From assembly GCA_946480245.1 (NCBI GenBank), contig CAMLIZ010000065.1:1-22797 (forward strand): 22,797 nt of DNA. The letters run 5' to 3'. Made by a program: the position numbers and the translations under genes. The notes under the pieces were generated by a model, which was not told where the DNA came from, ran no database searches, and was given only the letters and a program-made list of their open reading frames with translations. This stretch comes from an uncultured Pseudomonadota bacterium (GTDB lineage Bacteria > Pseudomonadota > Gammaproteobacteria > Burkholderiales > Burkholderiaceae). Shown here piece by piece: positions 5,034 through 20,074 of this stretch. Numbering within the stretch: the stretch's first letter is position 1; each line of letters opens with the position of its first letter.

Positions 5034-6443
5034 TCAGACTGGCAGGCCAATCAGGTCGTGGCCTTGCGCGCCGACGATGCGCGCCTTCGTGAACTCGCCC
5101 ACCTTCAGCGTCTTGGAGGCCTTCTCCGGCGGCAACAGCTTGACGCTGCCATCGATCTCCGGTGCGTCCGCATAGGTGCGGCCCACGCCGCCTTTGCGCC
5201 CTAGCGCGGGGGCCGAATCGACCAGCACCTGCATCGTGGCGCCCACGCGGCGCTGCAGGCGCGCCACCGACGCGCGCTCCGCGGCGGCCATGAAGCGCGC
5301 GCGGCGTTCCTCGCGCAGCGCCTGCGGCAGCATGCCCGGCAGCTCGTTGGCTGCCGCGCCCTCCACGGGCGAATAAGCGAAACAGCCGGCGCGGTCGATC
5401 TGGGCTTCGTCCACGAAATCGAGCAGCGTCTGGAACTCGGCCTCGGTCTCGCCGGGAAAGCCGGCAATAAAGGTGCTGCGGATCACCAGTTCAGGACAAA
5501 GCTCGCGCCATCTTGCGATGCGCTCCAGGTTGCGCTCGCCGCTGGCCGGCCGCTTCATGCGCTTGAGCACGTCCGGGTGGGCATGCTGGAACGGCACATC
5601 CAGGTAGGGCAGCACCCGGCCGGCCGCCATCAAGGGAATCACCTCGTCGACGTGCGGATACGGGTAGACGTAGTGCAGGCGCACCCAGGCGCCATGCGCT
5701 TCCGCCAGCGCCCCCAGTTGCTCGCACAGCTCGAACATGCGCGTCTTCACCGGCTTGCCGTCCCAGAAGCCGGTGCGGTACTTCACGTCCACGCCGTAGG
5801 CCGAGGTGTCCTGGCTGACGACGAGCAGCTCCTTCACCCCGGCTTCGAACAGTGCCCTCGCCTCGCCCAGCACGTCGCCGATGGGGCGCGACACCAAGTC
5901 GCCTCGCATGCTGGGGATGATGCAGAAGGTGCAGCGGTGGTTGCAGCCCTCGCTGATCTTCAGGTAGGCGTAGTGCCTGGGCGTGAGCTTCACGCCTTGC
6001 GGCGGCACGAGGTCCACGAACGGGTCGTGCGGCTTGGGCACGTGCAGATGCACGGCATCCATCACCTCCTGCGTAGCATGCGGGCCGGTGACGGCGAGCA
6101 CCTTGGGGTGCACTTCCTGCACGAGGTTGCCGCCTGCCGTGCCCGTCTTCGCACCCAGGCAGCCGGTGACGATGACCCGGCCGTTGTCGGCCAGCGCCTC
6201 GCCGATCGTGTCCAGGCTCTCCTTCACCGCGTCGTCGATGAAGCCGCAGGTGTTGACGATCACCAGGTCGGCGCCGGCAAAGCTCTTGGCAGTGTCGTAG
6301 CCCTCGGCCCGCAGCTGAGTGAGGATCAACTCGGAATCGGTGAGGGCCTTGGGGCAACCGAGGGACACGAAGCCGATCTTGGGCGGCTTGGCGTCTGCGG
6401 CAGGGGCAAGGGGAGAGGCAGTGGGGGAGGCGAGGTCGCTCAT
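5034..6443 (-). CDS. rimO: Ribosomal protein S12 methylthiotransferase RimO
   Basis: 469 residues. RimO is a radical-SAM enzyme with two 4Fe-4S clusters that adds a methylthio group to the conserved aspartate of ribosomal protein S12. All landmarks are present: the UPF0004 domain cysteines in [12 protein letters not shown] (Cys30), VNTCGFI (Cys66) and VTGCLGA (Cys95); the radical-SAM motif CNHRCTFC (Cys167, 171, 174) followed by IIPSMRG; and a C-terminal TRAM domain beginning near residue 400. '[12 protein letters not shown]' and 'IIPSMRG' separate RimO from the tRNA enzyme MiaB. An N-terminal Ala/Pro-rich extension of about 20 residues precedes the domain. It lies 46 bases after phaR and 13 bases before the metC-like gene, all leftward. 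Confidence 0.97.
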
Positions 6444-6489: not shown

Positions 6490-7068
6490 TTACTTCTTGG
6501 GCGGCGCCCCGAAGCCCGGCATGCCGGGGAACAGCGCCCCCGCCTGCTTGGACATCTGCTCCTGCATCTGCACGAACAGGTTCTTCGACTGCTCCAGGTA
6601 GTTGCCCATCAGCCCCTGCACCATCGGTGCCTGGCCGTTGAGGAACTGGCCCCACATCTCCGGCGTGAAGTTCTGCGCGTCGTACAGGCCCTTGGCCTGG
6701 TCGGCAAAGCGCTTCTGGATGTCGACGAAGGTCTGCAGGTTCTTCTCGAGGTACGCGCCCATCATGCCCTGCATCGCATGGCCGTAGAACCGGATGACGT
6801 TGGACAGCATGTCGGTACTGAACATCGGCACGCCGCCGGTTTCCTCCTCCAGGATGATCTGCAGCAGGATGCTGCGCGTGAGTTCTTCGCCGCTCTTGGC
6901 ATCGCGCACCTCGAACTCCTGGCCCTCGAGCACCATCTTCTTGACATCGGCCAAGGTGATGTAGCTGCTGGTTCGGGTGTCGTAGAGGCGGCGGTTCGGG
7001 TACTTCTTGAGTACGCGCACGCCGGCGGCGTCGCCTTCGGCCGCGCTGCCGCGGCGGTTGGAAGCCAT
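6490..7068 (-). CDS. phaR: Polyhydroxyalkanoate synthesis repressor PhaR
   Basis: 192 residues. PhaR represses phasin and PHA-synthesis genes and is titrated away by binding to PHA granules. The PHB/PHA accumulation regulator DNA-binding domain is at about residues 17-80 ([27 protein letters not shown]). It is followed by two copies of the helical PHB_acc segment: [18 protein letters not shown], then [19 protein letters not shown]. The ATG at 7068 is set by a GGAG 8 bases upstream; longer in-frame extensions to 7260 are not family-like. Presence of PhaR implies the host makes polyhydroxyalkanoate granules. It diverges from the first glycosyltransferase gene across 136 bases and leads a leftward unit with rimO and the metC-like gene. 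Confidence 0.95.
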
Positions 7069-7169
7069 GCAAGAAACTCCTGGGGTACGGATGCGAGGGG
7101 ATTCTAGGAGCGGGGGCCGCGCAGCGGCGAGGGGTGTTTCCCGGAGGCGTTTTCGCCCATGCATGGACG

Positions 7170-7190
7170 CCGGGCATGCGGACTGCCCGG
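7170..7190 (+). other. Hairpin just upstream of the first glycosyltransferase gene
   Basis: Inverted repeat CCGGGCA / TGCCCGG (7-bp stem, 7-base loop) in the 136-base divergent gap between phaR and the glycosyltransferase, ending about 15 bases before the ATG and abutting the GGGGTGA Shine-Dalgarno. It could influence translation or be a protein-binding dyad. No further support. Confidence 0.3.
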
Positions 7191-7204
7191 GGTGAGCCGC
7201 CATC

Positions 7205-8356
7205 ATGTCCGCCTCTGCACCGATCCGACTCGTCGACGCCACGATGCTGTGGAGCGCCACCGGTGGCGGCGTGCGGCGCTACCTCGAGGCCAAGCGGGAC
7301 TGGCTGGCGCGCCAGCCCGGCTGGTCGCACACGCTGCTCGTGCCGGGGTCGCGCGCCACGCCGCCGCGGCCTGACTGCGCAGAGGTGCACTGCGCCGCCC
7401 CGCGGCTGCCGGCCAGCGGTGGCTATCGCATGCCCTGGCGCCGCCGCGCGATAGCCGAGCAACTCATGGCGCTGCAGCCGCAGTTGATCGAGGTGGGCGA
7501 TCCGTACCGCATCGCCTGGTCGGCGCTCGATGCCGCGCAGCGCTGCGCGGTACCGGCACTGCTCTACTGCCATTCCGACCTGGAGGCGATGGCGCAACTG
7601 GCCGGCGGCCGCCTGCTGGCCGGCGCGGCGCGACGCTACGCACGCCGGCTCTACGCGCGCTTCGACCGGGTGCTTGCTGGCAGCCGCAGCATGTGCGAAC
7701 GGCTGCACGACCTCGGGCTCGCCAACGTGGCATGGCAGCCGCTGGGCGTGGACACGCGGGTGTTCCACCCCTCGCGCGGCAGTGCGGCCTGGCGTCAGGC
7801 GCTCGGGTTGCCGCACGACAGCCGCGTGCTGCTCTATGCGGGCCGCTTTGCACCCGAGAAGCACCTGGACGTGCTGGCGGCCGCAGTCGACCGCCTCGGG
7901 CCGCCGCATGTGCTGGTGGCTCTGGGCGCCGGGCCGGCGCCACCGCGCGGGCGCCAGGTGCGCTGCCTGCCCTTCGATCGCGCGCCCCACGCGGTCGCGT
8001 CGGCGCTGGCCAGCGCCGACGCGTTCGTGCATGCCGGCGACCAGGAGACCTTCGGGTTGTCGGCGCTGGAGGCGCTGGCCTGCGGCACGCCGCTGGTCGT
8101 GCGCCGCGCGGCCGGGCTGGCGGAACTGGTGGACGATGCCGTGGGCGTCGGCGTGGAGCGGGGGTCGCCGGCCGACTTCGCCGATGCGATCGAGGCCTTG
8201 TTCGCGCGCGAGCCGGTGTCGCTGCGCCGGGCTGCACGCCGGCGTGCCGAAGCCCAGTCCTGGGAGCGCGTGCTGCCCGCGCTGATGGCGCACTACCGGG
8301 CGCTGCTCGGCATCGCCGCCCCAGCCAGCGCTGCCGAGAGCGCGTTGACACGATGA
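7205..8356 (+). CDS. GT4-family glycosyltransferase (first of two)
   Basis: 383 residues with the GT-B fold layout of glycosyltransferase family 4, cytosolic or membrane-peripheral. The N-terminal glycine-rich acceptor loop reads SATGGGVRRYLE (residues 17-28). The nucleotide-sugar site shows GRFAPEKH (Arg213, Lys219) and the EX7E motif as ETFGLSALE (Glu281, Glu289) followed by ALACGTPLV. Donor and acceptor cannot be read from sequence. It resembles the second GT4 protein of the window across the C-terminal half, for example GVDTRVFHPSR here and GVDTARFHPSR there. Its stop overlaps the ATG of the next gene (ATGA), indicating translational coupling with the DUF2334 protein. A role in making a glycolipid or surface glycan is inferred from the locus. 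Confidence 0.88.
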   Translation: MSASAPIRLVDATMLWSATGGGVRRYLEAKRDWLARQPGWSHTLLVPGSRATPPRPDCAEVHCAAPRLPASGGYRMPWRRRAIAEQLMALQPQLIEVGDPYRIAWSALDAAQRCAVPALLYCHSDLEAMAQLAGGRLLAGAARRYARRLYARFDRVLAGSRSMCERLHDLGLANVAWQPLGVDTRVFHPSRGSAAWRQALGLPHDSRVLLYAGRFAPEKHLDVLAAAVDRLGPPHVLVALGAGPAPPRGRQVRCLPFDRAPHAVASALASADAFVHAGDQETFGLSALEALACGTPLVVRRAAGLAELVDDAVGVGVERGSPADFADAIEALFAREPVSLRRAARRRAEAQSWERVLPALMAHYRALLGIAAPASAAESALTR

Positions 8357-10838: not shown

Positions 10839-11945
10839 TCAGCGCACGCGTGGGCGCAGCAGTGCGCGCAGGCTGGGCAACTGCACGCCGCCCTCCAGGT
10901 ACAGGCGCAGCACGGCCAACCGCCGCACGCGGTGGCAGGTGGCGCGCAACCCCAGCAGCAACGGCACCGCCACGAAGGCCCCGGCGATGCCCCACAGCCA
11001 ACTCCACAGCAGCACCGACAGGAACACGAACACCGGGCTGATGCGCAGTCGGCTGCCCATCACGAAGGGGCTCAGGAAGTTGCCTTCGATGAAATGCAGC
11101 CCGAGGAAAACCGCGGCCGGCAGCAGCAGGCCCAGCCCCGCCCCGTACACGGCGCTGCCGGCCAGCACCAGCGCCACCGTGACCAGTGCGGGGCCGATGT
11201 AGGGCACGAAGGTGAGCACGGCCGTCACGCCGCTCCACAGCACGGCGTTGGGGAATCCGATGGCCGCCAGCGCCAACCCGGTGGCGGCACCGAGCAGCAG
11301 GCTCATCAAGCCCATCGTGGTGACGAACAGGCCGATCTCGCGCTGCGCCTGGCGCAGGCCGCCGAGCAGCAAGGCGCGGCTGCGCGGCCGCGAGAGGGCC
11401 TGCGCGGTGCGCACCACCAGCCAGTGTTCCGAGATCAGCAGGAAGTACAGCAGGAACACGGTGGCGGCAGCCGACACCGCGAACGACAGCGTGTGCCCGA
11501 GCACCTCGCGCGTGATCTGCAGGCCTTCCGAGGCCAGCCCGGCCGACAGCAGGTCACGCCGCGCCGCATCCGCTGCCGGCCCCGCCGGCTGCGCGCCGTG
11601 CGACGGCGGCGGCAGTGCGCTCCAGCCCACGCGCTGGACTTCGTCGAGCAAGCGCTGTGCGACGGCCGGCGCGCGCGCCCACATCGCCGCGGCCGGCGCC
11701 GCCAGCACCGAGGCGAGCAGCACCACCAGGGCCAGCACCGACAGGATCATCAACGCGGCGCCCACGAACTCGGGCACTCCGATGCGCCGCAACGCGCGAA
11801 CGGCGGGCGCCAGCACGAAGGCAAACACCACCGCCACCACCACGGGCAACAGCAGCGGCTTGGCCTGCTGCAACAGGAACAGCAGCGCCACGCCCAGCAC
11901 GCCGCGGCCCACCCAGCGCTCGGAGGAGATGCGGATCGTGTTCAC
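10839..11945 (-). CDS. AI-2E family membrane transporter
   Basis: 368 residues, about eight membrane segments, matching the AI-2E (PerM/TqsA) permease family. Seen: an N-terminal hydrophobic pair (LLFLLQQAKPLLLPVVVAVV, then VGAALMILSVLALVVLLAS), a soluble middle at about 85-150, and the conserved C-terminal half with IGFPNAVLWSGVTAVL, FVPYIGP and LLWSWLWGIAGAFVAVPLLL. Members export small molecules or act as Na+/Li+-proton antiporters. The substrate is unknown, and a link to autoinducer-2 should not be assumed. The start is a GTG at 11943-11945 with no strong Shine-Dalgarno. It leads the leftward unit with the GT4 and PAP2 genes and diverges from the creatininase-like gene across 114 bases. 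Confidence 0.9.
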   Translation of the reverse strand: MNTIRISSERWVGRGVLGVALLFLLQQAKPLLLPVVVAVVFAFVLAPAVRALRRIGVPEFVGAALMILSVLALVVLLASVLAAPAAAMWARAPAVAQRLLDEVQRVGWSALPPPSHGAQPAGPAADAARRDLLSAGLASEGLQITREVLGHTLSFAVSAAATVFLLYFLLISEHWLVVRTAQALSRPRSRALLLGGLRQAQREIGLFVTTMGLMSLLLGAATGLALAAIGFPNAVLWSGVTAVLTFVPYIGPALVTVALVLAGSAVYGAGLGLLLPAAVFLGLHFIEGNFLSPFVMGSRLRISPVFVFLSVLLWSWLWGIAGAFVAVPLLLGLRATCHRVRRLAVLRLYLEGGVQLPSLRALLRPRVR

Positions 11946-12044
11946 AGCACCATCGTCAGCACATCAGACCATTGAGCACCGCAGCCAACACCAGCAGGTG
12001 CGCTGTAAGCGATCGTCGTGCCCGGGGGTGGCGCGCGGCGCCTG

Positions 12045-12057
12045 GGGGAAAATCCCC
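12045..12057 (+). promoter_or_regulatory. Short hairpin that overlaps the Shine-Dalgarno of the creatininase-like gene
   Basis: GGGGA and TCCCC form a 5-bp perfect stem around AAA immediately before the ATG at 12060, with the G-rich arm being the only Shine-Dalgarno candidate. If it forms, it would hide the ribosome-binding site. A 3-base loop makes it only marginally stable. Confidence 0.25.
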
Positions 12058-12059
12058 GG

Positions 12060-12881
12060 ATGCCCTCGCTCCCACCGCTCCGCCGCCTGCTGCTCGCCGC
12101 CGCCGCGGTGCTCGCCGCGCTCGCGCCAGCCGCCGCGCACGCCGCCAGCGTGTACATCGAGCAACTCACCTGGACGGAGCTGCGCGACCGGCTGGCCGCC
12201 GGTGCCACCACCGTGCTGGTGCCAATCGGCGGCACCGAGCAGAGCGGGCCGCAGATCGCACTGGGCAAGCACAACGTGCGCGCACAGGTGCTGGCCGGGC
12301 AGATCGCCGAGCGCCTGGGCAACGCGGTGGTGGCCCCGGTCATCGCCTACGTGCCCGAGGGCGCCATCCACCCGCCGCAGGCCCACATGCGCTTCACCGG
12401 CACCATCTCCATCCCCGAGTCCACCTTCGAATCACTGCTGGAGGCCACGGCCCGCAGCTTCAAGCAGCACGGCTTTCGAGACGTGGTGTTCCTGGGCGAC
12501 CATGGTGGCTACCAGAAGAACGAGGAGCGCGTGGCCGCCCGGCTCGACCACGAATGGGCGCGCGACCCATCGTGCCGTGTGCACGCTTTGGCCGAGTACT
12601 ACCGCATCACCCAGACGGCCTATGTCGACGCGTTGAAGGCGCGCGGCGTTAGCAGCCGGGAGATCGGCACACACGCCGGGCTGGCCGACACCGCGCTGAC
12701 GTTGGCGGTCGACCCGTCGCTGGTGCGGCCGGATCGCTATGCCGAGGCCGCGCAGGCGGGCGCCCGCGACGGCGTGCACGGCGACCCCCGACGCGCCACC
12801 GTGGAGCTGGGTCAAGTCGGCACCCGGCTGATCGTGGAATCATCGGTGGCAGCGATCCGCGACGCGCTGCGTTCGCGCTGA
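12060..12881 (+). CDS. Exported creatininase-like protein with altered metal ligands
   Basis: 273 residues. A Sec signal peptide (RRLLLAAAAVLAALAPAAAHA) is followed by a creatininase-family domain. Creatininases are binuclear-metal amidohydrolases; relatives open cyclic amides or trim peptides, as MftE does. The first metal motif, normally EQHGPHLPL..D, reads EQSGPQIALGKHN. The glutamate is kept, the His is Ser, and the Asp position is His. The second motif, usually NGHGGN, reads GDHGGY. FTGTISIPESTFESLLEATARSF-type text matches the family around the substrate pocket. So metal binding may differ from textbook enzymes; the altered set may be normal for a subfamily. The ATG at 12060 gives the signal peptide. 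It is 32 bases upstream of the beta-propeller gene and heads a three-gene unit. Confidence 0.82.
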   Translation: MPSLPPLRRLLLAAAAVLAALAPAAAHAASVYIEQLTWTELRDRLAAGATTVLVPIGGTEQSGPQIALGKHNVRAQVLAGQIAERLGNAVVAPVIAYVPEGAIHPPQAHMRFTGTISIPESTFESLLEATARSFKQHGFRDVVFLGDHGGYQKNEERVAARLDHEWARDPSCRVHALAEYYRITQTAYVDALKARGVSSREIGTHAGLADTALTLAVDPSLVRPDRYAEAAQAGARDGVHGDPRRATVELGQVGTRLIVESSVAAIRDALRSR

Positions 12882-12913
12882 CACCTCTTTCGACTCAGGA
12901 TCCCCTCCCCACC

Positions 12914-14188
12914 ATGCGCAAGAAGTTCCGATTCACCCTGACCCTCGCCGCGCTGGCGACCGCCGGCTTGCTGCTCGGCGCCGCCGGCGGCCCGACGCCT
13001 GCCGCCGCACCGGGCGCCCTGCCGGCGGGCAAGGCCGCCGGGATCGCCACGGTGCCCGGCATGCCGCCTGTGGTCGACCCGAGCAACCTCTACAGCGAAA
13101 TCGGCGCCGGCCATCTCAGTGCCGCGGTGCAGGGCGACCTGGAGCGCGTGTATGTGCCCAACCTGCGCTCGAACGACGTCTACGTGATCGACCCGGCCAC
13201 GCTGAAGGTCGTGGACCGCTTCAAGGTCGGCCGTGGGCCGCAGCACGTGGTGCCGTCGTGGGATCTGCGCACCTTGTGGGTGGCCAACAACGCCGAGCGC
13301 CACGCAGACGGCAGCCTGACACCGATCGACCCCCGCACCGGCAAGCCCGGTGCCGCCGTGGCGGTGGACGACCCGTACAACATGTACTTCACGCCCGACG
13401 GCAAGTCGGCGATCGTGGTGGCCGAGGCCATGCACCGCCTCGACTTCCGCGATCCGAAGAGCATGCAGTTGCAGTACTCGATCGATGCGCCCAAGTGCGG
13501 CGGCATCAATCACGCCGAGTTCTCCATCGACGGCCGCTACGCGCTGTTCACCTGCGAGTTCGACGGCAGCCTGGCCAAGGTGGATCTCGTGAACCGCCAA
13601 GTCACGGGCTACCTGAAACTGAAGATGCCGCGCACGCGCTTCAAGGACGCTGCGGTGCAGCCGGCCGATGCGCCGGCCAGCGAGATCTGCACGTCCACCA
13701 AGGGCATGCCGCAGGACATCCGCGTGTCGCCCGACGGCAAGCGCTTCTACGTGGCCGACATGGAGGCCGACGGCGTGCACATCGTCGACGGCGATTCCTT
13801 CGTGGAGACCGGCTTCATCGCCACCGGAGTGGCCTCGCACGGGCTGTACCCCAGCCGCGACGGCAAGCGGCTGTACGTGGCCAACCGCGGCTCGCACAAG
13901 ATCCACGGCCCGCGCCACGGCCCGGGCAGCGTGACCGTGATCGACTTCGCCAGCGACCAGATCGTGGCCAAGTGGCCGGTGCCGGGCGGCGGCAGCCCCG
14001 ACATGGGCAACGTGAGCGCCGACGGCAAGTGGCTGTGGCTGTCGGGCCGCTTCGACGACGTGGTGTACCGCTTCGACACCACCACCGGCGCGGTCAGCAC
14101 TGTCAAGGTGGGCCAGGAGCCGCATGGCCTCACGGTGTGGCCGCAACCCGGCCGCTACTCGCTGGGCCACACCGGCAACCTGCGCTGA
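12914..14188 (+). CDS. Exported YncE-type beta-propeller protein
   Basis: 424 residues. The N-terminus (RKKFRFTLTLAALATAGLLLGAAGG) is a signal peptide, so the protein acts in the periplasm or outside. The rest is a seven-bladed beta-propeller of the YncE/YVTN/cytochrome-d1-like type. Repeated strand pairs are visible, such as ERVYVPNLRSNDVYVIDPAT, then GKRFYVADMEADGVHIVDG, then GKRLYVANRGSHKI, then DGKWLWLSGRFDDVVYRFD. No CxxCH haem motif and no typical PQQ-dehydrogenase tryptophan-docking motif is seen, so it is probably a binding or lactonase-like scaffold, not a redox enzyme. The reaction is unknown. A weak Shine-Dalgarno (AGGA, rather far) precedes the ATG. Its stop is 5 bases before the GTG of the fusion gene, indicating coupling. 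Confidence 0.85.
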   Translation: MRKKFRFTLTLAALATAGLLLGAAGGPTPAAAPGALPAGKAAGIATVPGMPPVVDPSNLYSEIGAGHLSAAVQGDLERVYVPNLRSNDVYVIDPATLKVVDRFKVGRGPQHVVPSWDLRTLWVANNAERHADGSLTPIDPRTGKPGAAVAVDDPYNMYFTPDGKSAIVVAEAMHRLDFRDPKSMQLQYSIDAPKCGGINHAEFSIDGRYALFTCEFDGSLAKVDLVNRQVTGYLKLKMPRTRFKDAAVQPADAPASEICTSTKGMPQDIRVSPDGKRFYVADMEADGVHIVDGDSFVETGFIATGVASHGLYPSRDGKRLYVANRGSHKIHGPRHGPGSVTVIDFASDQIVAKWPVPGGGSPDMGNVSADGKWLWLSGRFDDVVYRFDTTTGAVSTVKVGQEPHGLTVWPQPGRYSLGHTGNLR

Positions 14189-14193
14189 GCCCG

Positions 14194-16464
14194 GTGGCGG
14201 CCACGCCCGACACCGCCGAGCCTCGGCACGTTCACTTCCTGCTGCTGGGCGGCGGCCTGGCCAGCGCCACCGCCGCCGAGACGCTGCGCGCCGAAGGCGC
14301 CGAGGGCCTCATCGCGCTGGTGTGCGCGGAGCCGCACGCGCCCTATCACCGGCCGCCGCTGTCCGCACGCCTGCTGCTGGCGGAGACCGAGCGCGACCCG
14401 CCGCCGGTGCTGGCCGAGGCCTACTACCGCGAACACGACGTCGAGTTGCTGCTCGGCACCCGCGCCACGGCCGTCGACACCGAGCGCCGGCACGTCCACA
14501 CCGACCACGCCGGCACCCTGCACTACGACAAGCTGCTGGTCGCCACCGGTGCGCGTCCGCTGCAGCTGGACTTGCCCGGCGCCCAGCTCCCCGGCATCCA
14601 CACGCTGCGCACCCTCGAGGACAGCCACGCCATCCGCGCTGCGGCCCAGCGCGGGCGCCATGCGGTGGTGATCGGCAGCGGCTTCATCGGCATGGAGGTG
14701 AGCTCGGCGCTGGCGCAGCGCGGCGTGCACGTGACGCTGCTGGCCAAGGAGACCTTGCTGTTCGACCGCCTGCAGGACGCCGAACTGAGCAGCTTCTTCG
14801 CCTCGATGTACGCCGGCCACGGCGTGCAGCTGGTGCACGACCAGCCGGCGGCGTTCGAGGGCAGCAAGCGCGTGAGCAGTGTGCGCACCCGCGGCGGCCG
14901 AACGCTGCGTTGCGACTTCGTGGTGCTGGGCGTCGGCGTGGCGCCGGAGACGGCGTTTCTGCAAGGCAGCGGCATCGAGCTGGACGATGGCGTGCTGGTG
15001 GACCGCCGCCTGCAAAGCAACAACGCCCACGTGTTCGCCGCTGGCGACGTGGCGCGCTTCTTCGACCCGGTGTTCAACCAGCGCCGCCGCGTGGAGCACT
15101 GGGATAACGCCATCAAGCAGGGCCGGCTGGCGGCGCGCAACATGCTGGGCGCCGGGCTGCCGTACGACGAGGTGTCGTCTTACTTCTGCGACCTGTTCGA
15201 CCTGAGCTTCCAGTTCATCGGCGAGCCGCACGGCGCGCCACAGCGCGCGCGCATCGGCAGCCTGGCCGACCGCTCGTGCGCCCTGCTCTACCTGCGCGAG
15301 GAGGTGCCGCGCGCGCTGTTCACCACCGGACGTCCGGCGCGCGAGACGCATGCCATCCAGTCGCTGATTCGCTATCGCACCAATGTGGCCGACCTGCGTG
15401 CGCAGATGACGGAGCCGGGCTTCACGCTGCAGCGCATACCGCAGCAGACGGTGCTGATCCTGCAGGGCGGCGGCGCGATGGGTGCGTTCGAAAGCGGCGT
15501 GGTGCAGGCGATGGAGCAGCGCGGCCTGTACCCGGACATCGTGGCCGGCGTGTCGATCGGTGCGCTCAACGGCGCCATCGTGGCCTCGCACCCGCGCCAT
15601 GCCGCCGAGGCGCTGCGCGCGTTCTGGTCCGATCTGGCGGTGGACACGCTGGCGCTGCCCGGCGAGCCGGCGCGGCAGCTGGCGGCCGCCTCCCAGATCC
15701 TGCTGTGGGGCGTGCCCAGCTTCTTCCGCCCACGCTGGGCGGCACTGCCGCTGCAGCCGGTGCCGATGTGGACCTCGTTCTACGACCCCACGCCCGTCAA
15801 GGCGCTGCTGCGCAAGCACGTGGATTTCGAAGCGCTGAAGCACAGCCCCGTGCGCCTGCTGGTGAGCGCGGTCAACGTGGAGACGGCGGCGCTGGAGGTC
15901 TTCGACAGCTACGTGCAGACGCTGACACCCGAGCACCTGCTGGCCAGCGGCAGCCTGCCACCCGGCTTCCCGTGGACCACGATTGCCGGCAAACACTACT
16001 GGGACGGTGGCATCGTGAGCAACTCGCCGCTGGAGCAGGTGGTCGAGCGCTGCGGCGCCTCGGGCAAGCACGCGATCGTGGTAGACCTGTTCGCCAACAG
16101 CCGGCCGCTGCCCGCCAACATGATGGAAGTGCTGAGCCGCCGCGACGAGATCGTGTATGCCGAGCGCGTGCGGCGCGACGGCGCGGCGCAGCTGCTGCTG
16201 GGCGACTTCCGCAAGCTGGTGCTCGATGCGGTGGACGCGATGCCGCCGGCCGCCGCCGAGCAATTCAAGCAGCGGCCGCGCTACATCCAGCTGATGGGCG
16301 ACGACGCCGCAATGACGGTGACGCGCATCGTGCGCGAGGGCGCCGAGCGCGAACCCGCCTCGCGCGACTACGACTTCTCCCGGCCGTCCATCGAACAGCA
16401 GCAGCTCGACGGACACGCCGCGGCGCTGCGCGTGCTGGGCCCCGGCAAGGCGCCAGGCGGCTGA
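14194..16464 (+). CDS. Fusion of FAD/NAD(P)H oxidoreductase with patatin-like phospholipase
   Basis: 756 residues without signal peptide. Residues 1-400 form an AIF/ferredoxin-reductase-like flavoenzyme: FAD Rossmann motif LLGGGLASATAAE (glycines from 19), a short ATGARPL, NAD(P)-binding VIGSGFIGMEVSSAL (from Gly161), and FAD-binding FAAGDVARF (Asp285), then HWDNAIKQGRLAARNM and a C-terminal module. From about 418 a complete patatin begins: oxyanion loop LQGGGAMGAFESG (from Gly425), nucleophile elbow GVSIGALNG (Ser454) and catalytic Asp in WDGGIVSN (Asp604), then a DUF3734-like tail (YDFSRPSIEQQQLDG). Patatins hydrolyse acyl lipids. The start is a GTG, the first sensible one after the preceding stop; no Shine-Dalgarno is visible. 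Met405 (15406) could be an internal start for a free patatin. Redox control of lipid hydrolysis is inference. Confidence 0.88.
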   Translation: MAATPDTAEPRHVHFLLLGGGLASATAAETLRAEGAEGLIALVCAEPHAPYHRPPLSARLLLAETERDPPPVLAEAYYREHDVELLLGTRATAVDTERRHVHTDHAGTLHYDKLLVATGARPLQLDLPGAQLPGIHTLRTLEDSHAIRAAAQRGRHAVVIGSGFIGMEVSSALAQRGVHVTLLAKETLLFDRLQDAELSSFFASMYAGHGVQLVHDQPAAFEGSKRVSSVRTRGGRTLRCDFVVLGVGVAPETAFLQGSGIELDDGVLVDRRLQSNNAHVFAAGDVARFFDPVFNQRRRVEHWDNAIKQGRLAARNMLGAGLPYDEVSSYFCDLFDLSFQFIGEPHGAPQRARIGSLADRSCALLYLREEVPRALFTTGRPARETHAIQSLIRYRTNVADLRAQMTEPGFTLQRIPQQTVLILQGGGAMGAFESGVVQAMEQRGLYPDIVAGVSIGALNGAIVASHPRHAAEALRAFWSDLAVDTLALPGEPARQLAAASQILLWGVPSFFRPRWAALPLQPVPMWTSFYDPTPVKALLRKHVDFEALKHSPVRLLVSAVNVETAALEVFDSYVQTLTPEHLLASGSLPPGFPWTTIAGKHYWDGGIVSNSPLEQVVERCGASGKHAIVVDLFANSRPLPANMMEVLSRRDEIVYAERVRRDGAAQLLLGDFRKLVLDAVDAMPPAAAEQFKQRPRYIQLMGDDAAMTVTRIVREGAEREPASRDYDFSRPSIEQQQLDGHAAALRVLGPGKAPGG

Positions 16465-16470
16465 ACGCCG

Positions 16471-18066
16471 CTACAGCAGCTCCTCCGGCACCAGCGGCGA
16501 TAGCAGCCACTGCTGCAGGCGCAGCCAGGGCGAGCTATCCGGCTCGGTGTCGAGCACTATCTCGCTGTCCTCGCCCTCGGCGATCCACTCCAGCCCGCCG
16601 CCGCCCGGCTTCAGGCGCACCTTGTAGGCACTCTGCAAACGGTCGATGTCGATCACGCGCAGCAGCTCGCGCGCCAGCTGCGGGCTGTGGATCACCGCCC
16701 CGAGTTCGGTGTTGATGTTGGCCGAGCGCGGATCGAGGTTCATCGAGCCGATGAAGCAGGTTTCGCGGTCGATCACCACCAGCTTGGCATGCAGCCGGCC
16801 CAGCGACTGGTTGAACAGGAACAGGTGCTTGTTCTTCTTCACCCGCGTAGTGCTCAGCTCGTACAGCTGCACCCCCATGCGCAGCATCGCCTCGCGATAG
16901 CGGCTGTAGCCCAGGTGCACGGCCGGCTCGTCGGTGGAGGCAAGCGAGTTGGTGAGCACCGTCACCTCCACGCCGCGCTCGCGCAGCTCCTTCATCAGCG
17001 CCATGCCGCCCGGCCCGGGCACGAAGTACGGCGATGAGGCCACGAGGCTCTTCTTCGCCTTGCGCATCGCCTCGAACACGTTGTAGGTGACGCTGGTTTC
17101 GAGCAGCTGGCCACCCGCCACACCTTCGAAGGGCTTGTCCGGATGGTCGGCGAACACATAGGCGTCGCCCCAGATGAGCCCGAGGCGGCCGCCGTCCAGG
17201 TCGTCGGCGATCGGGCCATAGCCCAGCACGTCGTTGGCGGGCAGCGGATCGGGCGCCGGCGTGTGCGCCGGGCCGGTGATCTCGTCGAAGTAGGCGCGCA
17301 GCGCAGCCGGATCGTCCTGTGTGTGGGCCACCGCCTGCAGCGGGTACACCGGGTCGCTGTTCCAGTAGCGGTCGAACAGGCCCTGAAGCGGCGGCACGAT
17401 CCAGCCCGCGACGAACGCGTCCAGGTCCACGAAGTTGTCGGAGGGGCCGCGCAGGTAGTAACCGTTGGCCACGTTGCGCCCGCCGATCACCGCCATCGCA
17501 CCATCGGCGATGAACAGCTTGTTGTGCATGCGATGGTTCACGCGGCCGAACTCGCTCAGCGAGGCCAGGAAGCGTGCGTTCTGGCCCCGGTCGCGCGCGC
17601 AGCAGAACGGGTTGAACAGCCGCACCTCCACGTTCTTGTGCGCCGCGAAGCCGAGGAACAGCTCGTCGTTGCCGTTGGTGTAGAAGTCGTCGAGCAACAG
17701 GCGCACGCGCACGCCCCGGTCCGCTGCGTCGGCCAGCGCGCGCAATAGCCAGCGGCCGGTCTCGTCGTTCTCGAAGTCGTAGTACTGCAGGTCCAGCGTC
17801 GCCTCGGCGCGCCGCGCCAGCTGTATGCGCGCGTCGAGCGAGAACGAGCCGAGCGGCATCAGGCGGAAGCCGGAGAGCGCCGGGTCGGGCTGCGAGTCGT
17901 GCGCAATGCGGCCGAGCGTCGTGCTGGTGGACAGCGGCACCGCGCTGCTGGCGATCGCGCCGCGGTCGATGGTAGGCAGCCGTGTGGCGCAGCCGCCCAG
18001 CAGGCCGAGCATGGCAAGGCCGGCGCACGCCAGGCGGCGCAGGCCGAGAAGAACCGGCAGTGTCAT
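16471..18066 (-). CDS. Phospholipase D / cardiolipin-synthase-like lipoprotein
   Basis: 531 residues. The N-terminus ends in a lipobox, LLGGC (Cys26), so it should be a lipid-anchored envelope protein. Two intact HKD motifs mark the PLD superfamily: HNKLFIAD (His181, Lys183, Asp188) followed by GGRN, and HAKLVVID (His426, Lys428, Asp433) followed by GSMNLDPRS. This layout fits cardiolipin-synthase-type or other phosphatidyltransferases that swap phosphatidyl groups through a His intermediate. Most cardiolipin synthases have membrane helices, so the lipoprotein form is a distinct type. The ATG at 18066 has GGAG 8 bases upstream. It follows the FtsH-like gene by 73 bases on the same strand, so they are probably co-transcribed. 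Its end is 6 bases from the stop of the convergent fusion gene. Confidence 0.9.
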   Translation of the reverse strand: MTLPVLLGLRRLACAGLAMLGLLGGCATRLPTIDRGAIASSAVPLSTSTTLGRIAHDSQPDPALSGFRLMPLGSFSLDARIQLARRAEATLDLQYYDFENDETGRWLLRALADAADRGVRVRLLLDDFYTNGNDELFLGFAAHKNVEVRLFNPFCCARDRGQNARFLASLSEFGRVNHRMHNKLFIADGAMAVIGGRNVANGYYLRGPSDNFVDLDAFVAGWIVPPLQGLFDRYWNSDPVYPLQAVAHTQDDPAALRAYFDEITGPAHTPAPDPLPANDVLGYGPIADDLDGGRLGLIWGDAYVFADHPDKPFEGVAGGQLLETSVTYNVFEAMRKAKKSLVASSPYFVPGPGGMALMKELRERGVEVTVLTNSLASTDEPAVHLGYSRYREAMLRMGVQLYELSTTRVKKNKHLFLFNQSLGRLHAKLVVIDRETCFIGSMNLDPRSANINTELGAVIHSPQLARELLRVIDIDRLQSAYKVRLKPGGGGLEWIAEGEDSEIVLDTEPDSSPWLRLQQWLLSPLVPEELL

Positions 18067-18139
18067 TCGGGCAGCTCCCTCCGCTTGGCGCCTCGCATGG
18101 TAGCGAGAGCCGGCGGCGGCGTGGCCCGGGTTCAGCCCG

Positions 18140-20074
18140 TCAGACCGACAGCGCTTCGCTGCTGGTAGCAGCGCGCAGCATCGGTACCTGCGGCGGCAGT
18201 GCCTCGTCGTCGTCCTCGTCCAGCGGCACCAGCTCGCGCAGCAGCGCACCGGAGACGGTTTCGTCCTTGAGCAAGGCGGCAGCCAGTGCCTGCAGCACGT
18301 CGCGATGGCGCTCCAGGACTGCACGGCATTCGCGCTGCGCACGCTCGAGCAGCGCACGCGCCTCGGCCAGCACGCGGTCCTGGATGTGCGGACCGACCAG
18401 GCCTTCCGGCACGCCATGCAGGCTGAGCAGGCCGAACTCCTTGGAGAAGCCCATCGCGCTGACCATTTCGATGGCCAGCTCGGATGCGCGCTTCAGGTCG
18501 TCCGACGCGCCCGACGTGGTGTTGCCGAAGGTCAGCAGCTCGGCCTCGCGGCCGGCCAGCAGCATGCCGATGCGCGCGTTCAGCTCCTGCTCGCCATACA
18601 GCGGCACCTCGTCGGCGCGCGTGACGAACGTGACGCCCAGCGCCTGCCCACGAGGCTCGATGCTGATGCGCTCCACGGTGCCGGCGCCCATCACATGCGC
18701 CACCACCGCGTGGCCGCCCTCATGCACGGCGATGCGATGCCGGTGCTCCGGCGTGAACATGGTCTTCAGGCTGGACACCTCGCCACCGAGCTGGTGCGAC
18801 TCGAGCGCACGGTGCACGAACTCCTGCGTCACCCATTCGCTGCCCGCCTCGGCCGCCATCACGGTGGCCCGGTTCACCACGTTGGTGATGTCGGCATGCG
18901 ACAAACCGCTGCTGGCGCGGCCCAGCGCCTCCACGTCGATGGCGCCGGGCGCGGATTTCACGCGATCCAGGCACAGCCGGAACAGGTCGCGGCGATCGTG
19001 CACCGACGGCAGCGTCACGCGCGCCACCAGGTCGAAGCGGCCCGGGCGCTTGAGCGCGTCGTCCACGTTGCCCACGTGGTTGGTGGCGCCGATCACGACG
19101 ATGTTGTCGGACGGGCTGAAGCCGTCCATCTCGACCAGCAGCTTGTTGATGATGCGGTTCTCTTCCGACTGTCCGCCCTGCACCTTGTTGCCGCTGGCGC
19201 GCTTGCCGATGCCGTCGAACTCGTCGATGAACACGATGCACGGCGCGTTCTTGCGAGCGGTGGCGAAGAGCTCCTTCACCTTGGTAATGCCCGCGCCGTA
19301 GAACATGCTGGAGAAGTGCGAGCCGTCGACCGCGATGAAGTTGGCCTTGCATTCGCCGGCCAGCGCACGCGCCAGCAGCGTCTTGCCGGTGCCCGGCGGG
19401 CCTTCGAGCAGCACGCCGCGCGGCGGCTTGGCGCCAAGCGCCAGATACTTCTCGGGGCTGCGCATGAAGGCCGTCACCTGCTGCAGCGCCGACTTCGCCT
19501 CGGAGGCGCCGATCACGGCGTCGAAGTCGGTCTCGGGCTTTTCGGCCAACTCGAGCTTGTTGCCACCGATGCCACCGGCCTGACGGATCAGGTAGAAGCC
19601 GAGCAGCAGCATCGCCAGGATGGTGACGATGCCCATGCCTCGGTCAAACACATTGCCCACCGCAGCGGCGAGCTTCTCACGCGGCGTGCGCGGGTCGACC
19701 GCGATGCGTGTGAGCGCAAAGCCCTGGTCGCGGCTGAGCGCTTCCAGCCGCGACTGCAGGCCGCTGCCGCCGCCCACCAGCTCGGTGCTGTAGTGCTGGC
19801 CGGCCTTGGTGGTCACGAACACGCGGCGCTCGTCCACACCCAGCGCAGCGACGTCACCGGCCGCCAGGGCGCGCTCGAACTCGGAAACGTCCTTCGGGTG
19901 GTCCAGCCATTGCCGCGGCGCGGCCTCGAAGGTCTGGGCCAGGCTGGTCTTGCCCACCTGTTGAGGGGTGAGCGAACGGTATTCGAGGGCCACTCCGGCG
20001 CACAGGGCGGCAGCGAGGGCGGCGACGGCGGCCAGGGCTTGCGCCCAGCGCGGCCAGGAGGAAACGGACTTCAT
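18140..20074 (-). CDS. Divergent FtsH-type membrane AAA metalloprotease
   Basis: 644 residues with FtsH architecture: TM1 at about 11-30, a periplasmic segment, TM2 at about 147-165, an AAA module and an M41 peptidase. Walker A is GPPGTGKT (225-232), Walker B IVFIDEFD (280-287), arginine fingers RPGRFD, zinc motif HEGGH (451-455) and probable third ligand in SGASDDLKRA (Asp525/526). It should be an ATP-driven protease of the inner membrane. Differences from housekeeping FtsH: HEGGH for HEAGH, pore loop MFYGAG for the usual MFVGVG, and ATNHVGNVDDALKRPG for ATNRPDVLDPALLRPG. So it is a specialised paralogue; its targets are unknown. AGGGA precedes the ATG. It sits before the PLD lipoprotein gene and diverges from the TetR gene. 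Confidence 0.9.
   Translation of the reverse strand: MKSVSSWPRWAQALAAVAALAAALCAGVALEYRSLTPQQVGKTSLAQTFEAAPRQWLDHPKDVSEFERALAAGDVAALGVDERRVFVTTKAGQHYSTELVGGGSGLQSRLEALSRDQGFALTRIAVDPRTPREKLAAAVGNVFDRGMGIVTILAMLLLGFYLIRQAGGIGGNKLELAEKPETDFDAVIGASEAKSALQQVTAFMRSPEKYLALGAKPPRGVLLEGPPGTGKTLLARALAGECKANFIAVDGSHFSSMFYGAGITKVKELFATARKNAPCIVFIDEFDGIGKRASGNKVQGGQSEENRIINKLLVEMDGFSPSDNIVVIGATNHVGNVDDALKRPGRFDLVARVTLPSVHDRRDLFRLCLDRVKSAPGAIDVEALGRASSGLSHADITNVVNRATVMAAEAGSEWVTQEFVHRALESHQLGGEVSSLKTMFTPEHRHRIAVHEGGHAVVAHVMGAGTVERISIEPRGQALGVTFVTRADEVPLYGEQELNARIGMLLAGREAELLTFGNTTSGASDDLKRASELAIEMVSAMGFSKEFGLLSLHGVPEGLVGPHIQDRVLAEARALLERAQRECRAVLERHRDVLQALAAALLKDETVSGALLRELVPLDEDDDEALPPQVPMLRAATSSEALSV

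Follow-up and report, generated by a model that had tools for sequence, protein, structure and literature searches.

The 22,797-nucleotide stretch analyzed here (the window; contig CAMLIZ010000065.1 of an uncultured Burkholderiaceae bacterium) carries on its forward strand, at positions 14194-16464, a single reading frame in which a ferredoxin-reductase/AIF-type flavoprotein is followed by a patatin-like hydrolase, and the question is whether such a protein is genuine and what a redox module might do for an ester hydrolase. The frame starts with GTG and runs for 756 residues with zero internal stops; it encodes one two-domain polypeptide, a flavoprotein joined to a patatin/DUF3734 hydrolase. 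The fusion is a novel combination of known parts, with neither a new fold nor a new chemistry, and it is older and wider than a view of the single sequence had indicated.

The flavoprotein module (residues ~10-417; 14221..15444, +) comprises a flavin adenine dinucleotide (FAD) domain, an NAD(P) domain and a Reductase_C-like domain, the two-Rossmann FAD/NAD fold with C-terminal domain typical of oxygenase-coupled reductases. A junction (residues 396-420; 15379..15453, +) leads to the patatin domain (residues 421-616; 15454..16041, +) and the DUF3734 domain (residues 653-748; 16150..16437, +). Pfam matches were obtained for Pyr_redox_2 (16-310, 2e-57), Pyr_redox (156-233, 2.5e-11), Patatin (PF01734, 421-616, 2.7e-31) and DUF3734 (PF12536, 653-748, 3.2e-15), with E-values that exclude a chance match. 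Every flavin and patatin motif named in the preliminary description was located in this one frame: GGG at 19-21, GSGFIGME at 161-168 and AAGDVARF at 282-289, then the oxyanion loop GGGAMG at 425-430, GVSIG at 452-456 with the nucleophile Ser454 (codon 15553..15555, +) and DGG at 604-606 with the dyad residue Asp604 (codon 16003..16005, +). The protein thus shows the Pfam match, GxSxG serine, DG[GA] aspartate, GGGxG loop and patatin fold that define PF01734. Called mechanically, the open reading frame (ORF) extends over 13258-16464, since the GC-rich frame remains open upstream for a total of 1068 codons; the fold match begins near residue 10 of the shorter frame. An antisense frame of 753 codons (14155-16416, -) spans the gene and most likely just reflects the high GC content.

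The fusion family is conserved but sparse. A search of 5.8 billion proteins returned 1586 homologs, with domain content taken from the 120 listed; all 119 of these besides the window's own record combine Pyr_redox_2, Patatin and DUF3734. In a search of one genome per species, 25 loci were matched, 19 by the near-whole fusion and 6 by the reductase part only, with carriers including Curvibacter, Sphingobium, Rhodoferax, Pseudomonas, Variovorax, Acidocella and a Dadabacteria metagenome-assembled genome. Of 392 genomes, 4 had a P0001-like match at E 1e-100, in one case a partial match, and the DUF3734 domain was present in 12/274, 70/399 (one below cut-off) and 33/289 genomes, mostly in frames of ~400 residues; these were samples by taxon that each include the center genome, picked because the gene was present. 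Database names within the family are generic ('FAD-dependent oxidoreductase', 'NTE family protein'). The doubts raised beforehand, that the fusion might be confined to this genome or arise from a frame break at 15406-15460, were thereby settled in its favor: the architecture recurs in many taxa, and no break was found. In alignment A1 (105 rows: P0001 and 104 of the 120 listed homologs, without the window's own record P0002 and 15 presumed look-alikes), the piece between the columns of residues 396 and 420 measures 24 residues in 103 rows and 25 in the other 2. The literature search, with most subscription papers outside its scope, agreed with the earlier statement that no described system has this architecture: no paper was found on DUF3734 with patatin or on patatin fused to an FAD-dependent oxidoreductase, and the query for patatin fused to a pyridine nucleotide-disulfide oxidoreductase returned only irrelevant titles.

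For phylogenetic analysis, 94 fused proteins were used (63 of the 105 A1 rows, at a 78% identity cut, and 31 locus proteins). Stand-alone reductases were chosen by length among the 120 listed of 3135 (38 proteins) and supplemented with 8 from loci, one of them AndAa-type (L029); P0155, P0159 and P0164 were excluded as truncated or frame-shifted fusions, clearly so for P0159 and presumably for the others, and 43 remained. L020 and P0152 are apparently one protein. The patatin tree places all 94 fusions in a single clade, separate from the 21 unfused proteins (1 change), with identities to the patatin part of the window protein of ~45-63% for fused and ~30-38% for unfused members. In a quick search of the reductase tree, three stand-alone proteins fell inside the fused group (2 changes), but the tree with the 94 fused rows constrained together fits better (log-likelihood 51.6 higher, approximately unbiased test p-AU 0.896). 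A single origin of the fusion is the simplest reading of these trees. The stand-alone reductases P0129, P0133 and P0137 (409-412 residues), which lie near or inside the fused clade and retain a linker-like C-terminus, possibly reflect loss of the patatin or are the nearest unfused relatives.

Candidates for a pre-fusion state with separate genes were rejected: no reductase match was obtained in the 21 unfused DUF3734 loci. A plasmid of Nocardioides sp. JS614 (L027 9953-12092) carries separate reductase and patatin genes in that order, with folE upstream of them, but Pfam detected no DUF3734 in this patatin and tblastn found no counterpart of it in five actinobacterial reductase loci (L021-L025), so the pair was not counted as the pre-fusion state. 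In the genome of Acidocella aminolytica (L014; L131, L132, L035), DUF3734 occurs in three genes: two are fusions and the third is a frame of 421 residues.

The two halves of the fusion differ in how their active sites were kept. Ser454, Asp604 and the oxyanion-loop GGG are invariant in all 105 aligned fusions, as are the FAD-motif residues Gly19-21, Glu46, Arg53, Gly284 and Asp285 and also Glu168 (codon 14695..14697, +; Glu148 in FdR9); His302 and Trp303 are found in 104 of 105. Judged by these residues, the fusions probably still bind FAD. In the portion of the report available on FdR9 from Thermobifida, Lys47 of the motif PYxRPPLSK bonds Glu148 and the flavin N5/O4, and the NADH ribose is read by BphA4 Glu175, equivalent to FdR9 Glu164 (PMC7397466); the accessible part of a report on AIF gives the matching pair as K177 and E314 (PMC7617965). 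The window protein reads PYHRPPLSA, with Ala58 (codon 14365..14367, +) in place of the lysine and Ala184 (codon 14743..14745, +) in place of the NADH-reading acid. From the motif, we take AIF K177 and E314 to correspond to Ala58 and Glu168.

Across A1, position 58 is K in 27 sequences, which have the full PYxRPPLSK lysine, T in 50, G in 15, A in 9 and S in 4, and Glu occupies position 184 in 2 sequences. The 31 fusions from genome loci, which are further from the window, have the lysine in 29 cases and an acidic position 184 in 24, so that most of the loss falls in the part of the tree around the window protein. The lysine is present in 43 of 43 stand-alone reductases versus 48 of 94 fusions, and the tree requires at least 7 changes at this site. 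Of the 46 fusions that have lost the lysine, 45 have no NADH-reading acid either. As both residues are absent from the window protein, efficient NADH-driven electron transfer is doubtful there, and on several occasions among the fusions NADH-driven chemistry probably became weaker; the reductase fold repeatedly loses its flavin-site lysine after fusion to a hydrolase whose dyad stays intact. The fold matches of the window flavoprotein include BphA4 structures with E175 replaced, presumably made to study NADPH use, and the Ala184-Lys185 pair could reflect an NADPH preference. Mean identity to the window protein amounts to 70.3% for the FAD2 segment, 66.3% for the patatin domain, 50.9% for DUF3734 and 47.5% for the NAD segment, the least conserved of the four flavoprotein segments cut; in the junction (residues 399-419), which is fixed in length and variable in sequence, it is 37.5%.

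Gene neighborhoods of relatives were compared with respect to 3-hydroxybutyrate dehydrogenase (HBDH), acetoacetate decarboxylase (AAD) and phaZ, the gene for polyhydroxybutyrate (PHB) depolymerase. At least one was found near the fusion in 12 of 34 loci, near the stand-alone DUF3734 patatin in 11 of 21, and in none of the 20 control stretches (fused versus control, Fisher p = 0.0019, for loci that are not independent by descent and controls from other genomes). The controls were taken 60-100 kb from the patatin gene in genomes of the unfused set, not the fused one; the unfused set itself consisted of 20 stretches selected for long contigs and L139, moved in from the fused loci. The fused set omits L014 and L140, which duplicate L131 and L012, as well as the partial L184, and it contains L137, L185 and L186 in place of L181-L183. 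Unbiased clustering of all ORFs likewise singled out HBDH and AAD as recurring partners; the remaining recurrent clusters were judged to be frames overlapping these two or to stem from the near-identical L004-L006. HBDH lies beside 10 of 34 fused loci and in 11 of 21 unfused loci by clustering (10 of 21 by thresholded search).

HBDH and AAD are co-oriented with the fusion or the patatin in every case, and in the 10 HBDH-bearing fused loci the gap to the nearest partner ranges from -26 to 140 nt. The order AAD-HBDH-X occurs with the fusion as X in 5 of 10 loci and with a plain patatin in 3 of 11, and X-AAD-HBDH with the fusion once and with a plain patatin twice; overlaps, which reach -466 in the unfused set, are in part a mechanical effect of taking each ORF from its earliest start. 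Such shared orders suggest that the fusion replaces the plain patatin in one pathway, and support its occupying the place of the stand-alone DUF3734 patatin in HBDH/AAD operons. Two annotated sphingomonad plasmids have the order AAD - fusion - HBDH with a phasin gene close by, and phaZ adjoins the fusion divergently on a Cupriavidus plasmid and in L138.

We tentatively favor a role as a cytoplasmic patatin/DUF3734 ester hydrolase of 3-hydroxybutyrate (3HB) and PHB mobilization, with a flavoprotein part that senses NAD(P)H and that in window-type proteins is a sensor or scaffold more than a reductase. The serine hydrolase would release 3HB or short 3HB esters, which HBDH and AAD would then process; the N-terminal flavoprotein, of the NADH:ferredoxin-reductase/AIF family, would hold FAD and sense NAD(P)H, and its redox or cofactor state would be passed to the hydrolase through the fixed-length linker. 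In the window sub-group, whose flavin site has neither the lysine nor the acid of efficient NADH oxidation, it would act as sensor or scaffold more than as reductase. Hydrolysis of 3HB esters or PHB is favored because of the relatives' neighborhoods and the precedent of PhaZh1, a patatin of Haloferax that adjoins bdhA and degrades polyhydroxyalkanoate (PHA) in vitro, according to the available portions of the reports (PMC11205408, PMC4823750); the sensor or scaffold role is favored because a rough motif scan shows no enriched ferredoxin partner, the linker length is fixed and the flavin site was repeatedly altered. The more specific version, a flavin-gated polyester or 3HB-ester hydrolase in which a former NADH:ferredoxin reductase became the redox or cofactor sensor and release of PHB carbon follows the NAD(P)H state, is a speculative extension that we consider rather doubtful.

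Several observations weigh against this assignment. No match to HBDH, AAD or phaZ was obtained within the window, and 22 of 34 fused loci have none in the stretch examined, some stretches being short. Where the neighborhood of a lysine-lost fusion is available (window, L137, L031, L185, L186), the five loci together show one such partner, phaZ in L031, and loci without HBDH (L028, L137, L185, L005, L007) have mixed neighbors with no shared theme among the genes scanned. The lysine-retaining fusions (48 of 94 overall, 29 of 31 from loci) could be true reductases, and the loss of residues elsewhere may be plain decay of the reductase part. On the patatin side, the literature bearing on the fusion consisted of Haloferax, Synechocystis and Methylorubrum papers, partly accessible: deletion of PhaZh1 had no significant effect on PHA mobilization in vivo in the portion available (PMC4823750), and Slr0060 of Synechocystis is described in the accessible text as a suspected, unproven case of PHA depolymerase (PMC7203880).

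Were the fusion a true bifunctional enzyme, the reductase would re-oxidize the NADH made by HBDH, passing electrons to quinone, ferredoxin or another acceptor, the patatin would supply the substrate, and the link between them would be a mere tether. We regard this as unlikely: the 46 of 94 fused proteins without the lysine include the window's, a linker of constant length points to something tighter than a loose tether, and a rough motif scan with two ferredoxin patterns showed no excess near the fusion, with 3 and 4 of 32 fused loci versus 2 and 3 of 20 controls. The same scan showed no enrichment of P450 genes; its sole P450-pattern match overlaps the fusion frame itself. Rieske proteins occur in 4 of 32 fused loci, among them the annotated dioxygenase clusters of L029 and L030, versus 1 of 20 controls. 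As to the earlier proposal that one polypeptide links NAD(P)H state to acyl hydrolysis, the link is plausible and its efficient NADH-driven form is the doubtful part. Somewhat less likely again is a phospholipase linked to redox state that would remodel or repair membrane lipids under stress. The patatin fold is close to PlpD, patatin and CapV/CapE, a phospholipase A gene lies near the fusion in one plasmid locus, and in the window a gene of phospholipase D (PLD) type, cardiolipin-synthase-like, lies directly downstream of the fusion in convergent orientation (16471-18417, -); this PLD gene, however, has a tblastn match in the window only among the 31 loci compared, the recurrent neighbors are HBDH and AAD genes, and no signal peptide is discernible by eye in the fusion. 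A membrane-lipid substrate, or a quinone as first suggested, is unsupported so far, the neighborhoods of some relatives pointing to 3HB/PHB metabolism instead.

The flavoprotein could also be a decaying passenger of an ancient fusion, drifting in the window's sub-group while the hydrolase alone matters. Absence of the lysine and the NADH acid would fit this, as would the low conservation of the NAD segment relative to the patatin domain; set against the invariance of Glu168 and the near-invariance of His302 and Trp303, an FAD2 segment better conserved than the patatin domain while DUF3734 falls well below both, and the presence of Pyr_redox_2 in all other listed homologs, we consider it improbable. 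The joining of two separate genes by a local sequencing error found no evidence beyond the openness of the GC-rich frame, and is refuted by the recurrence of the fusion in listed homologs and genome loci together with trees that fit a single origin.

With the NADH:ferredoxin reductases TodA, BphA4, putidaredoxin reductase and FdR9, and with AIF/MDHAR, the window protein shares the whole fold (residues ~12-417), the FAD motifs and Glu168; unlike them it carries a C-terminal patatin and has neither the lysine nor the NADH acid, and unlike oxygenase-coupled reductases the fusion loci show no consistent ferredoxin partner nearby in the rough motif scan. Stand-alone DUF3734 patatins share both hydrolase domains and the operon place with the fusion relatives, but have no flavoprotein and stand apart from the 94-member fused clade. 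PhaZh1 of Haloferax mediterranei, compared by description and not by sequence, shares the patatin domain and a bdhA neighbor, like HBDH in some fusion relatives, and differs in being described, in the portion of the reports available, without a flavoprotein part. By analogy, the fusion may resemble CapV and CapE, patatins of the cyclic-oligonucleotide-based antiphage signaling system (CBASS) that are governed by nucleotide ligands and whose ligand-bound structures are among the fold matches, except that its possible ligand, flavin or NAD(P)H, would sit in a separate domain. An anti-phage effector of this type was rejected, PADLOC matches being weak only (30.5 bits) and no CD-NTase/cyclase family member occurring among the window ORFs scanned.

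If the flavin part does gate the hydrolase, the fusion would be a direct molecular link from redox state to the release of stored carbon, which touches on the old question of PHB as a sink for reducing power, and a flavin counterpart of the nucleotide-gated patatins. Even without gating, a large and generically named family would gain a possible pathway context. New here are the neighborhood link of the fusion family to HBDH, AAD and phaZ, and the juxtaposition of an invariant hydrolase dyad with a lost flavin-site lysine.

In the window itself, the fusion is preceded by a gene for a YVTN/YNCE-type beta-propeller protein (12914..14188, +), which ends 5 nt before its start codon and is likely co-transcribed with it; the propeller also matches, below cut-off, a model for propellers associated with pyrroloquinoline quinone catabolism. 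A creatininase-family hydrolase gene (12018..12881, +) precedes the propeller gene by 32 nt. There is no support for the genes of the propeller, the creatininase-family hydrolase or the PLD-like protein as conserved partners, since among the 31 loci compared tblastn matched them in the window only. A scan of 11800-18500 for sigma-70 promoters found none. About 7 kb upstream of the fusion, a gene for a PhaR-type regulator of PHB accumulation (6490..7260, -; PF05233, PF07879) suggests that the host lineage probably makes PHB, in keeping with the PHB role favored above. It adjoins a gene with radical-SAM, UPF0004 and TRAM domains (5034..6443, -), which we take to be RimO, and further upstream of this pair lie genes for SmpB, RnfH and IMP dehydrogenase, an arrangement that resembles a beta-proteobacterial chromosome. 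Beyond the PLD-like gene, a frame at 18140-20074 encodes an AAA + M41 (FtsH-like) protease.
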